64,000 nt of DNA. Origin: Verrucomicrobiia bacterium (GTDB taxonomy: Bacteria > Verrucomicrobiota > Verrucomicrobiia > Limisphaerales > JAEYXS01). A program made the position numbers and the translations under genes. Location: positions 1 to 64,000 of the forward strand of contig DASWYF010000013.1 of NCBI GenBank assembly GCA_036405135.1, in the 5' to 3' direction. Position 1 is the first letter of the stretch, and every line of letters begins with the position of its first letter. Below the pieces are notes generated by a model. The model was not told where the DNA came from. It ran no database searches and saw only the letters and a program-made list of their open reading frames with translations. Shown in pieces: positions 3,714 to 49,973 of the stretch.

Positions 3714-4556
3714 ATGGAAGACGCAAAAAAACTCGTCATCGATTTCTTCATCTCCTACGGGTTCCAGATCATCGGCGCCCTCCTTATCATGGGCCTCGGT
3801 GTCTTGCTGGCCAAATACCTGGGTCGCATCCTGGAAGAAGCCCTCACCAAGAAGGGCATGGAGCCGCCCCTGCGCTCCCTCATCATCAAAGGCGTCAAAA
3901 TCCTCATCTTCGCCTTCACCGCCGTCCTGGCGCTGGAGAAGTTCGGTGTCCCCATCGCCCCCATGGTCGCCGGTATCGGTGTCGCCGGTGTGGGCATCGG
4001 CCTTGCTATGCAAGGTGTGCTCGGCAACATCGTCGCCGGCCTCACCATCATCTTCACCAAACCCTTCCGCATCGGCGAGTGGGTGGAGATGCTCGGTGAG
4101 CACGGCGAGGTGGCCTCCATCGAACTCTTCACCACCACCCTGACGCATCCCGACCGCTCCCGCGTCATCATCCCGAACCGCAAGATCGTCGGCGAGATAC
4201 TCCACAACCACGGCGCGATCCGGCAGCTCGACCTCTCCGTGGGCGTGGCTTATGCCACCGACCTCAACGCCGCCATCGCCGCCGTGCGCCGCGTCCTGGA
4301 AGCCAATCCGCGCGTGTTGAAAGACCCCGCTCCCGTGGTCGGCGTCAGTTCACTCGGGGATTCCGCCATCAATATCGTCGTGAAACCATGGGTCTCCGTC
4401 GCCAACTACGTCGCCGCCGGTGCCGAGCTCAATCTCGCCATCGTCGAAGAATTCCGCCGCAGCAACATTTCCATCCCGTTCCCCCAACGCGAAATCCGCA
4501 TCCTCAAAGACCCCGAAGCCCCCGTAGAACTGGCCACCTCCTCCCACGGGCGATAG
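3714..4556 (+). CDS. mscS: small-conductance mechanosensitive channel (MscS family)
   Basis: 280 residues from the ATG at 3714; a TTG at 3672 is the alternative start. There are three N-terminal membrane segments. The pore-lining helix is glycine/alanine-rich ('AGIGVAGVGIGLAMQGVLGNIVAGL'). It is followed by the characteristic beta-domain entry 'IFTKPFRIGEWVE', the 'VIIPN' motif and an alpha/beta C-terminal domain. The length matches E. coli MscS (286). The channel releases solutes on hypo-osmotic shock at the inner membrane. It stands alone between the TA pair and the partner-switching genes. Confidence 0.93.
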   Translation: MEDAKKLVIDFFISYGFQIIGALLIMGLGVLLAKYLGRILEEALTKKGMEPPLRSLIIKGVKILIFAFTAVLALEKFGVPIAPMVAGIGVAGVGIGLAMQGVLGNIVAGLTIIFTKPFRIGEWVEMLGEHGEVASIELFTTTLTHPDRSRVIIPNRKIVGEILHNHGAIRQLDLSVGVAYATDLNAAIAAVRRVLEANPRVLKDPAPVVGVSSLGDSAINIVVKPWVSVANYVAAGAELNLAIVEEFRRSNISIPFPQREIRILKDPEAPVELATSSHGR

Positions 4557-45551: not shown

Positions 45552-48500
45552 ATGAGAACACCTACCTTGCTAACCAGTGTCGCCCTGTCTCTGGCAATCG
45601 GTGTGTTCACGGCGGAAGCCGTGCCCACTGCCAATCCAGACACGGGTTCTATCAACGCGAACCAGCTTTTGACGGTGAACAATCCGAATGGCGTGTTGAG
45701 CAATGATACGGGCACTGGAACGCTTGTCGTTAACGGTAACGCTCCGCAGCAAAACTATACTTTTGCGGGTTTTACTTTTGATCAGTTAAGCACTCCCAAT
45801 GTCGGGACGCTTTTAGGTGCGGGAACATACTCTAACGCAATTGTCACCATCACGCCGAACGAGCGCACAGGTGATATTGGAGGTTTTCCGGATAGCTCAG
45901 CGGGTTTTAACAGCGCGATTACGTTGGGGCGATTGGCTTTCGGTGATCCCACCGGTGTACGCGCGGTGAACCTGCCTCGCGGGAATAATGGGAGCACCCA
46001 GCGCAGTGGGATGGAGTTGTCGTGGAACAATGGTCTGACCGTTACCAATCTGGCGGGTAACGATTTTGTGGTGTTCGAGTCTGGTTCGGCAGGAACGCCA
46101 GAAGCCTTCATGGTCCAAGTTCGCAATGCGGCCACCGCTACTTGGAGCATTTGGGTTTATAATCCAGCCACGGCGTTTGCCAGTGTCGATGGAGCAGGTC
46201 TCTTCGCCACCCCGTTTGACTTGGATGCATTCGGGATCGCTGCGAATGCGCGAATCGACGGCATTCGCATCGTCAATATGACGAATGAAGACCGTATGGC
46301 GAGTGCCTCAGGTGCAGGCGAAGTGATCCCGGAAGATAATGGAGCTACTAGTGCAAATCTGCCAGATGTGGGCACCTTGGCGGTCGATTTCTCAAATTAT
46401 GGAGCTGGTACATTGGATCCTGATCCGCTCTATATCGGCATCTTGCGGCCGATGAATCCGGGCACGACGGCCTTTGATGTGAACAGCGTCGCCGGGGCTG
46501 CGGTGAATGTGAATCCGGATGGCACTTATACCTATGACCCGCGCAGTGTGCTGGCATTCCAGCAACTGGCTGCAGGACAGTCCGTGAACGACACATTCAC
46601 CTACAATGTTCAGGATGACTCTGTGGAAAACAATTCCGCGCGCGGGACGGTGACCATCACGGTGACAGGTGTGAATGAAACGCCGGCAGGCGTGAATGAT
46701 ACTTATGTTGCGAATGAGGACACAGTCCTTACCGTCGGTGCCGCTGATGGTGTGCTGGACAACGATACGGACATTGATGCCGGGACGACACTGACGGTGT
46801 CTGCCTTTGATGCGTCCAGCGTGCAGGGCGCGACGGTGGCCGTGAGTGCCGATGGCAGCTTTACCTACAACCCGAATGCGTCGGCGAGCTTGCGGGCGCT
46901 GACCGTCGGCCAATCCTTGACGGATACGTTTACTTACACGGTGTCCGATGGTGAAGGTGGAACGGATACGGCCACGGTCACGATCACAGTTTCGGGCCGG
47001 AATGATGCCCCCTTGGCGATGAATGATACCGGCTATGCCACTTTCTCCAACGCGCCTCTGAATGTCACCGCTCCCGGTGTGCTGGCTAATGATACGGATG
47101 CGGACGGCAACACCTTGCGGGTGGAAGGGCCGGGACAGCAGCTCTACACCTTTGCGAACGTAGTCTTCGATCAGGCGGGCACGCCCACAATCCTTACGCG
47201 ACTGGCACCGGGCGCTTACAATGGTGCAACGATCGATGCGGAGCCTGAGGACACGACCACACCGCGGGATGGTTTCCCGAATGATACGACCAATTTCCGG
47301 GGAGCCTATTCCTTGGGGCATCTGTTCAATTCGTCCTCCTCGGGCACGACGGTGAGCGGTGTGAACCTGCCGCTGGGCGATGTGGGCACGAGCTTCCGCA
47401 GTGGCGTGGAGATCACCTGGGTGAACGGTTTGAGCCTGACGAACCTGGCCGGGAATGACTTTGTGGTTTATGAATCCGGCAGCGAGAATGCGCCAGAAGC
47501 GTTCATGGTGCAGGTGCGAGGGACGGATTCCGGTGTCTGGAGCTCATGGGTGTATGTGCCGGCATCGGAAAGTGCTGCCTATGGCATCGCGGGCGAGTTC
47601 CTTTTTGCCACGGTCTTCAATCTGGATTATTTCGGCATCTCGGCGAATGACCGGATCGATGCGTTCCGCATCGCTAATTTGAGAGCGTCAGACCGCATGG
47701 TGGCAGGAACAAACGTCGTGATCCCGGAGGATGAGGGGGCCACGAGCGCCATTCTGCCTGCCCCGGGTCCGCTGGCGAGTTTCGGTGCGTATGGTGCCGG
47801 GACGTTTGATCCTGATCCGGTCTATCTCGGTGTCTTGCATCAGTTGGTGGAGACAGCACCCGCTTACAGCGCCACCAGTGTTTTAGGCGCGACAGTGGTG
47901 GTGAATGCGGACGGCAGTTTCAGTTATGATCCCACGACCTCCGTGACACTTTCCACACTGGCGCTGGGGGTGACGATGGATGACGAGTTCACTTATACGG
48001 TGACGGATGGATTCGGTGGATTCTCCTCGGCCAAAGTGACCGTGACGGTAACGGGCGTCAACTCGCCTCCGACCGTTTCCATCACCTTCCCGCCGAATAA
48101 CTCGTCGTTCTTCAGCCCGGCCAGCTTTACCATGACGGCCACCGCATCTGATGTGGATGGCACTGTGACGCAAATCGAGTTCCGTGAGACGATCCAGAAT
48201 ATCTCCCTGGGAACGGATACGACGCCCGGAGATGGCTTCTCGGTGAATCTTTCGAATCTTGCACCGGGCAACTACTCGTTTGTGGCCATCGCGACGGATG
48301 ATGACAACGCGACGACGACCTCTGCCGCAGTGAACATCACGGTGCTGGCGAATCTGCCTCTGGGAACGGTCAGCGCGATCGATGCGAGCGGCTTCTACTT
48401 CCTCCAATCCGGTTTGATGAGCCAGTCTGTCACGGTGAACAATACCTCTCCGGTTCCGGTATCGGCGGTGCGTTTGACCATCCAAGGTCTGGCTCCTGGC

Positions 48501-48941
48501 ATAGTGGTCTACAATGCGAGCGGCACGAACGTGGCGAATGAACCTTATATGCAGCAGAACACGCCTGTTCCTGCGGGCGGTTCTGTGACGTTCTTCATCG
48601 AATATTACGTGGCGAACCGGACTACGATTCCTGCGCCGACTTTCGTCGCGACTTTGGAAACGGTGGCGGGACCGGTTGTTCCGGTTGGTGCCGTGCAGGC
48701 AATTCTGCGCAATCCGCCGGAAGTGCTTACGGATGGGCATGTGCTGATCGATTATGCGACGGTGCTAAATCGCACCTATTATATCCAATACAGCCCGGAC
48801 GCGACCACGTGGACTACGGTTTTCCCGGCGCAGACGGGCACGGGCTCGAACCGGCAATGGATCGATAGTGGACCACCCAAAACGGATGCACATCCGTCTA
48901 CCGTCGTGTCCCGGTTCTATCGCATCGTTGAAGTCCCGTAA
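45552..48941 (+). CDS. large secreted cadherin-like/VCBS protein with a twice-nested domain
   Basis: 1129 residues with a signal peptide ('SVALSLAIGVFTAEA'). Three cadherin-like (VCBS-type) repeats of the 'GVLANDTDADG...VNADGSFSYDP...TFTYTVSDGEGG' type are visible. Repeats 1 and 3 are each interrupted after 'NDTD..' by a domain of about 230 residues (about 69-300 and 532-768; shared 'NLAGNDFVV[FY]ESGS', 'PEAFMVQVR', 'VIPED.GATSA'). Repeat 2 is uninterrupted. An Ig-like domain (about 840-930) and a C-terminal region ending 'VSRFYRIVEVP', usual in PVC surface proteins, complete it. It is a secreted adhesin or matrix protein by inference, paired with the barrel gene 18 bp downstream. Confidence 0.85.
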   Translation: MRTPTLLTSVALSLAIGVFTAEAVPTANPDTGSINANQLLTVNNPNGVLSNDTGTGTLVVNGNAPQQNYTFAGFTFDQLSTPNVGTLLGAGTYSNAIVTITPNERTGDIGGFPDSSAGFNSAITLGRLAFGDPTGVRAVNLPRGNNGSTQRSGMELSWNNGLTVTNLAGNDFVVFESGSAGTPEAFMVQVRNAATATWSIWVYNPATAFASVDGAGLFATPFDLDAFGIAANARIDGIRIVNMTNEDRMASASGAGEVIPEDNGATSANLPDVGTLAVDFSNYGAGTLDPDPLYIGILRPMNPGTTAFDVNSVAGAAVNVNPDGTYTYDPRSVLAFQQLAAGQSVNDTFTYNVQDDSVENNSARGTVTITVTGVNETPAGVNDTYVANEDTVLTVGAADGVLDNDTDIDAGTTLTVSAFDASSVQGATVAVSADGSFTYNPNASASLRALTVGQSLTDTFTYTVSDGEGGTDTATVTITVSGRNDAPLAMNDTGYATFSNAPLNVTAPGVLANDTDADGNTLRVEGPGQQLYTFANVVFDQAGTPTILTRLAPGAYNGATIDAEPEDTTTPRDGFPNDTTNFRGAYSLGHLFNSSSSGTTVSGVNLPLGDVGTSFRSGVEITWVNGLSLTNLAGNDFVVYESGSENAPEAFMVQVRGTDSGVWSSWVYVPASESAAYGIAGEFLFATVFNLDYFGISANDRIDAFRIANLRASDRMVAGTNVVIPEDEGATSAILPAPGPLASFGAYGAGTFDPDPVYLGVLHQLVETAPAYSATSVLGATVVVNADGSFSYDPTTSVTLSTLALGVTMDDEFTYTVTDGFGGFSSAKVTVTVTGVNSPPTVSITFPPNNSSFFSPASFTMTATASDVDGTVTQIEFRETIQNISLGTDTTPGDGFSVNLSNLAPGNYSFVAIATDDDNATTTSAAVNITVLANLPLGTVSAIDASGFYFLQSGLMSQSVTVNNTSPVPVSAVRLTIQGLAPGIVVYNASGTNVANEPYMQQNTPVPAGGSVTFFIEYYVANRTTIPAPTFVATLETVAGPVVPVGAVQAILRNPPEVLTDGHVLIDYATVLNRTYYIQYSPDATTWTTVFPAQTGTGSNRQWIDSGPPKTDAHPSTVVSRFYRIVEVP

Positions 48942-48959: not shown

Positions 48960-49973
48960 ATGAAACGCATCCATTTGATGAGTTTGGGGTTGGCGGGCGT
49001 GTTGATGGCAGGGAGTGCTCAGGCCCAGGATAAAGGCAGTTTCGGGCGCTTCGGCATCAGCTACAATCTGAACTTCAACGTCGCGGCGGAGTTTTCGGGC
49101 ATCGGCGGGGCTGGGCCGGGGTTGAACCCTGGATTGGTGCCTTTGGTGAATCCTGGTGATATTCAGCAATTCGATGACGGATTCATCGGTATGGATGCCT
49201 CCGGGAATGCGGGCGGGCTTACGACCTTTTGGGGATATAACAATGCGAGCCAGATTGTGGGCGGTAATCTGCAGCTAAGCAGCACGGCACTGGCGGCGGG
49301 CTTGAGCACGCAGCGTAGTGATAGTGATTTGCAGCATGGTGTGGATCTGACCTACAGTTATCAGTTGAAGAGCTGGGAGAAGGGCGGTTGGGGCTTGGAA
49401 GGTGCATTTGGTTGGATGCCTGTAGGCATCACAGATAGCCAGGCGGTGGCTGGTAATTTGGTTGTCGCGAATATTCCGTTGGGTTTCGTGCCGCCAGTGG
49501 CTCCCTTTACAGGAACTGTGGCAGGACCGGGACCATTGTTGGACACGACCACAGGAACGGTAATAATTCCTGGAGGCGCCATCATCACCGGCAATCGCGA
49601 CATTGACGCGTCCGTCTTCGCATTCCGCTTCGGTCCTTACTTGGATTACAATCTCAGCGAGCGTGTGAGTCTGACCTTGAGCGGTGGCTTGTCCCTCGCG
49701 GTGGTGGATAGCGAGTTCACCTTCAATGAGTTGAAGACGCCGATCATTGGCACACCTTCTACGACCACAGGTAATGACCGTTCTTCTGATTTGCTGGTGG
49801 GAGGTTATCTCAGTGCGCGCGTGGCCTACTGGTTCACGGATAACATGAATGTGTTCACGGGCATCACCTATCAGAACGTGGGTTCGTTTAGTCAGACGGC
49901 GAGTGGCCGCAAGGCGACGCTGGATCTGGGTAAGACGATTTCCTTGAACGTGGGCTTAGGCTTCTCGTTCTGA
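48960..49973 (+). CDS. outer-membrane beta-barrel protein
   Basis: 337 residues with a signal peptide ('LMSLGLAGVLMAGSAQAQ'). Amphipathic beta-strands alternate with Gly/Asn-rich loops, and it ends 'LNVGLGFSF' with a terminal Phe, as in BAM-inserted barrels. 'aaggag' lies 10 bp upstream of the ATG, a clear ribosome-binding site. It follows the cadherin-like gene after 18 bp and ends with a bidirectional terminator, so the two form a short operon. It may be an exporter, anchor or porin for the surface protein, but this is only a context guess. Confidence 0.8.
   Translation: MKRIHLMSLGLAGVLMAGSAQAQDKGSFGRFGISYNLNFNVAAEFSGIGGAGPGLNPGLVPLVNPGDIQQFDDGFIGMDASGNAGGLTTFWGYNNASQIVGGNLQLSSTALAAGLSTQRSDSDLQHGVDLTYSYQLKSWEKGGWGLEGAFGWMPVGITDSQAVAGNLVVANIPLGFVPPVAPFTGTVAGPGPLLDTTTGTVIIPGGAIITGNRDIDASVFAFRFGPYLDYNLSERVSLTLSGGLSLAVVDSEFTFNELKTPIIGTPSTTTGNDRSSDLLVGGYLSARVAYWFTDNMNVFTGITYQNVGSFSQTASGRKATLDLGKTISLNVGLGFSF

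Follow-up and report, generated by a model that had tools for sequence, protein, structure and literature searches.

In RTX adhesins, Ig-like 'split domains' push a ligand-binding domain out of the chain, and this layout serves as a criterion for spotting the ligand-binding domains of such proteins (PMC10865825, PMC12077191). FrhA of Vibrio cholerae, AhLap of Aeromonas hydrophila and MpIBP are all split-domain adhesins of this kind (PMC10865825, PMC12077191). The reports of split domains that we found in the open-licence literature all concern RTX adhesins of Gammaproteobacteria, and an earlier description elsewhere is possible. Here, we describe a comparable layout in a protein from a Verrucomicrobiia bacterium, encoded by a single open reading frame of 1129 amino acids at positions 45552-48941 (+ strand) of the window, that is, the whole 64,000-nucleotide stretch of DNA that was analysed. 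All three cadherin-like repeats of this protein belong to the Cadherin_4/Big_9/Cadherin_5/VCBS/tandem-95 group (PF17803, PF17963, PF17892, TIGR01965, NF012211). Repeat 2 is an ordinary member, but in the other two, unlike in ordinary Cadherin_4/Big_9-type repeats, a domain of about 235 residues, hereafter called the guest, breaks the sequence.

The protein opens with a segment that, judged by eye, resembles a signal peptide (residues 1-23, MRTPTLLTSVALSLAIGVFTAEA; 45552..45620; this and all features below lie on the + strand). A Pfam scan finds four Cadherin_4/Big_9/Cadherin_5 stretches and one Big_7 domain, and alignment of part against part places the three repeats at residues 24-378, 375-487 and 484-840. 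Repeat 1 begins with an N-terminal half (residues 24-65; 45621..45746) that aligns with repeat 2 and weakly matches positions 14-40 of Cadherin_4; it is followed by the first guest (residues 66-301; 45747..46454) and by a C-terminal half (residues 302-378; 46455..46685) that also aligns with repeat 2 and matches Big_9 positions 37-89 at 22.1 bits, slightly below the cut-off. Repeat 2 (residues 379-483; 46686..47000) is uninterrupted. In repeat 3, the N-terminal half (residues 484-528; 47001..47135; Cadherin_4 positions 11-51) and the C-terminal half (residues 766-838; 47847..48065) flank the second guest, referred to as insert 3 (residues 529-765; 47136..47846); both guests match positions 2-238 of the guest profile. 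A bacterial Ig domain of the Big_7 family comes next (residues 840-910; 48069..48281; PF17957, E 2.4e-8), and the chain ends in a C-terminal region (residues 932-1129; 48345..48938) in which we recognised no known anchor.

Does the guest lie inside the repeat or between two repeats? The preliminary description had placed a domain at residues 69-300 of repeat 1, nested at the same point in repeats 1 and 3 but absent from repeat 2, with long motifs shared by the two copies. Apart from the bounds, redrawn here to residues 66-301, the part alignments agree with that account: the two guests share 52-53% identity along some 235 residues, far beyond chance (BLASTP E ~1e-73, from a small local search), and repeat 2 (residues 375-487) can be aligned with repeats 1 and 3 alike and lacks any insert at the matching point. 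The break falls about 12 residues past the NDTD loop, where the interrupted repeat reads NDTDADGNTLRV, then the insert, then AYSATS, and the uninterrupted one reads NDTDIDAGTTLTV followed directly by SAFDASS; at the junction itself, LRV, insert, AYSATS stands against LTV-SAFDASS. The insertion point is identical in repeat 1, in repeat 3 and in a second gene of the same genome (L002).

The Big_9 profile, which has 89 positions and a curated cut-off of 23.6 bits, gives the same picture. Repeat 2 is a full-length member (positions 1-89, 67.1 bits for residues 375-487). Taken alone, the N-terminal half of repeat 3 matches positions 1-39 (26.8 bits) and its C-terminal half positions 45-89 (36.6 bits); joined without the insert, they match positions 1-89 at 60.6 bits, and the Cadherin_5 and Cadherin_4 profiles agree. 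Repeat 1 is more diverged: it is 42% identical to repeat 2 in the alignment, its loop reads NDTGTG and has lost acidic residues, and its joined halves reach 23.2 bits over positions 4-89, slightly below the cut-off. The low Pfam scores of the repeat 1 halves could be taken to mean that the insert is a separate domain standing between complete repeats and that the apparent halves are degenerate repeats. We consider this very improbable and have rejected it, given that the repeat 3 halves fit complementary, non-overlapping stretches of a single profile that sum to a full match, and that the interrupted repeats align directly with repeat 2 and with L002. On these sequence grounds, the guest is nested within the repeat, as the preliminary description had supposed.

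Structure prediction, which that description had named as a check, is consistent with nesting. An AlphaFold2 model of residues 484-840, that is, repeat 3 with its guest, was built from 28 sequences, is confident overall and was read as secondary structure and confidence (pLDDT 89.4, pTM 0.75). Host strands are predicted on either side of the guest, the guest has strands of its own and is predicted to be mostly beta, and confidence falls to blocks of about 70 and 58 at the two guest junctions, which a guest hinged on its host would be expected to show. The preliminary description had pictured the guest as a beta-sandwich hanging from a Ca-binding rod; both of these would be putative features, and the loop of repeat 1 has lost acidic residues, as noted above. 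The sequence halves thus describe a discontinuous Ig-like host with a separate domain budding out, and the model is consistent with this description.

The layout is not peculiar to one assembly. The large protein, with repeats 1 and 3 but not 2 interrupted, recurs in two further genomes of the genus. A single repeat interrupted at the matching point is encoded by another gene, represented by L002, a 447-residue protein of the window's own genome, and by L008. Since the relatives are metagenome bins, and since one of them (the orthologue L006, positions 3780-4060) has a TAG in frame immediately ahead of insert 1, it might be argued that the nested layout is an assembly or chimera artefact. This is scarcely credible in our judgement and a chimera was rejected, because three separate genomes share the layout, neighbouring genes are kept and purifying selection acts on the gene (dN 0.24 against the orthologue L007, with dS ~1.7, near saturation). 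The TAG of L006 directly precedes the insert (NAP*QSYSF) in a frame that is open on either side, and it is either a sequencing error or a genuine nonsense codon.

The guest also occurs without any surrounding repeat; it is an independent domain, and its family is uncatalogued and undescribed. In the window's own genome, the protein L003 consists of the guest alone, 39% identical, with a PEP-CTERM anchor. Searching with the insert alone, as the preliminary description had advised, brought up solo members outside the genus in Verrucomicrobiota, Planctomycetota, Acidobacteriota and one alphaproteobacterial bin, and cyanobacterial proteins in which the guest forms the N-terminus of a larger protein, so that the guest is found in at least five phyla. 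The cyanobacterial loci are L014-L016, L018-L021, L024 and L025; in two of them, L015 and L018, the guest is followed, by eye, by regions resembling the Calx-beta, beta-helix and RTX types. Within the order, a profile search found the guest in at least 6 of 293 genomes, and a broad profile run over 388 genomes of the phylum found it in the window's own genome alone (at least one genome); these counts are lower bounds, as the first look scores few candidates per genome. Sequence searches of Pfam, NCBIfam, PHROGs and PDB with the insert returned no family, and no solved structure resembled the guest at sequence level. When 28 members were scanned, no Pfam family matched at a significant E, the best being a chance-level 0.019 in one member.

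The preliminary description had further suggested that the same nesting might be met in other surface proteins of the PVC group. This holds for the two other genomes of the genus and for L002 and L008; the Planctomycetota, in which guests come in pairs, present a different scaffold. There, two guests lie about 160 residues apart in at least eight genomes, within long frames of up to 4065 residues, and no cadherin-like repeat was matched in the guest flanks at the insertion points. The giant loci with this pair and its non-cadherin scaffold are L009, L010, L011, L012, L059-L066 and L072-L079. Each copy has flanks homologous to those of the other (an hhalign comparison spanning the insertion point gives E 3.4e-6, one row in four of the second alignment being miscut), so a unit has been duplicated there as well. 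No uninterrupted copy of this host unit was found in four whole genomes and stretches of four more; hence, the Planctomycetota guests are compatible with either nesting or tandem placement.

How did the copies arise? In a tree of 40 guest domains, the eight cadherin-nested guests form one clade (97/92), which sits within a group otherwise made of second copies from Planctomycetota pairs (100/99), and the solo copy from the same genome is placed elsewhere. This tree is most simply read as a single entry into a cadherin-like repeat with later duplication, and this genus and the Planctomycetota seem to have doubled their guests separately. A tandem duplication of a repeat-with-insert unit had been proposed from the window; the duplication of the unit stands, but its tandem origin does not follow, as the best tree pairs insert 3 with the copy in L002 (81/76). 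A clade of inserts 1 and 3 is not rejected (AU p 0.143), and the host tree, being weak, does not help to decide.

The resemblance to RTX adhesins has clear limits. As in those proteins, the host is an Ig-like domain discontinuous in sequence from which a separate domain buds out, and ordinary repeats separate the split ones: in AhLap, the two Ig-like split domains have a pair of extender domains between them. The exit point differs. FrhA lets the guest out after a single beta-strand of the host, as does AhLap in its second split domain; in the protein described here, about 45 residues of the repeat come first, and the guest departs roughly halfway through it (Big_9 position 39 of 89). The host is also different, being a Cadherin_4/Big_9/VCBS-type repeat, and no relation between the guest and those of RTX adhesins was detected. 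Furthermore, a family profile scan gave no RTX repeat match in the nested protein, which, unlike RTX adhesins, has no visible anchoring either. By analogy, the protein resembles a split-domain adhesin, and we do not place it among the RTX adhesins. The strict claim of a novel architecture made in the preliminary description is therefore unsupported, as split Ig-like domains with budding ligand-binding domains are already published (PMC10865825, PMC12077191). What is known is the split-domain architecture; what would be new here is a different host repeat together with an undescribed guest domain.

A second comparison concerns LIC_13355, a Leptospira lipoprotein for which binding to laminin, plasminogen and endothelial cells has been reported (PMC11891782). 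About 30 residues around an invariant GxDFVVxE motif are weakly matched by the model of its family (NF033170) in 11 of the 28 guests (best E 3.3e-4), and insert 1 is the sole match of this model across the whole genome. However, the scores, 19.7 bits for the whole protein and about 15 bits for the insert, are far from the cut-off of 120, and likeness elsewhere in the domain is undetected. We regard the resemblance as a lead at the level of a motif, not as family membership.

What might the guest do? Eight positions are invariant in the 28 guests (R87, G105, D107, V109, E112, G164, D183 and D227, in the row of insert 1), which suggests a conserved site, although these residues could be structural instead. 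Purifying selection, the invariant positions and the split-domain analogy favour a ligand-binding role, the LIC_13355 likeness being a lead only. We therefore propose, at about an even chance of being right, that the inserts bind ligands and that split cadherin-like repeats of a secreted, adhesin-like surface protein present them. The protein would be a short rod of Ig- and cadherin-like repeats, presumably located at the cell surface. In each split repeat, the first 42-45 residues would be made, the chain would exit to form the guest, an independent and mostly beta domain some 235 residues long, and would then return to complete the host repeat. With both of its ends held by the host repeat, the guest would project sideways and leave its far side free for a ligand, and the intact repeat 2 would space the two guests apart. 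As a portable extracellular module, the guest would probably bind a glycan, a matrix component or a surface polymer.

Two other roles have to be weighed against ligand binding. The guest may have a structural or matrix role, as would a self-associating domain of an exopolymer or biofilm protein, and may happen to sit in a permissive loop, nested for stability. PEP-CTERM-anchored solo members do resemble ordinary exported matrix proteins, and domain insertion is common in general, reaching 20% of multidomain proteins according to one source (PMC13114784). We think this rather unlikely, since the polar residues R, D, E, D and D are invariant across several phyla and the guests of the split-domain precedent bind ligands. 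The same R/D/E/D/D set, together with a sulfatase gene found upstream on the opposite strand in the genus, would suit an enzyme that is held out from the rod and cleaves polysaccharide or protein as a hydrolase or lyase; this is an improbable role, as no Pfam or NCBIfam enzyme family gives a meaningful score and no other catalytic domain was seen in the solo members.

The surroundings of the nested protein may bear on how it is exported. A gene for an outer-membrane beta-barrel-like protein (48960..49973, + strand; OMP_b-brl E 4e-4, below cut-off) starts 18 bases past its stop codon and runs in the same direction, and the genus keeps the two together, as seen in L006 and L007. The two genes are probably co-transcribed, and the beta-barrel-like protein might help to anchor or export the nested protein. 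A frame of 3103 residues in the same genome (G000:C39) shares the C-terminal 190 residues at 30% identity, which suggests that the region at 48345-48938 is a module common to both proteins, and the last 75 residues find a match in one other protein (E 1.7e-13). The same genome also contains a 6099-residue open frame (L005) with similarity to the last part of repeat 3 and to the Big_7 region; it is probably a giant adhesin-like protein.

Taking ligand binding as the role of the guest, a wider proposal, which we put forward tentatively and with some doubt, is that its family is a general ligand-binding head on split repeats of non-RTX surface proteins, portable enough to have entered two unrelated PVC hosts: cadherin-like repeats, midway along, in this genus, and another kind of repeat in the giant Planctomycetota proteins. 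That a Verrucomicrobiota genus has the split layout in its cadherin-like repeats suggests that the rule known from RTX adhesins may be general. For an uncatalogued domain family spread over at least five phyla, the ligand can now be searched for, and the solo members would be ready constructs for that search.
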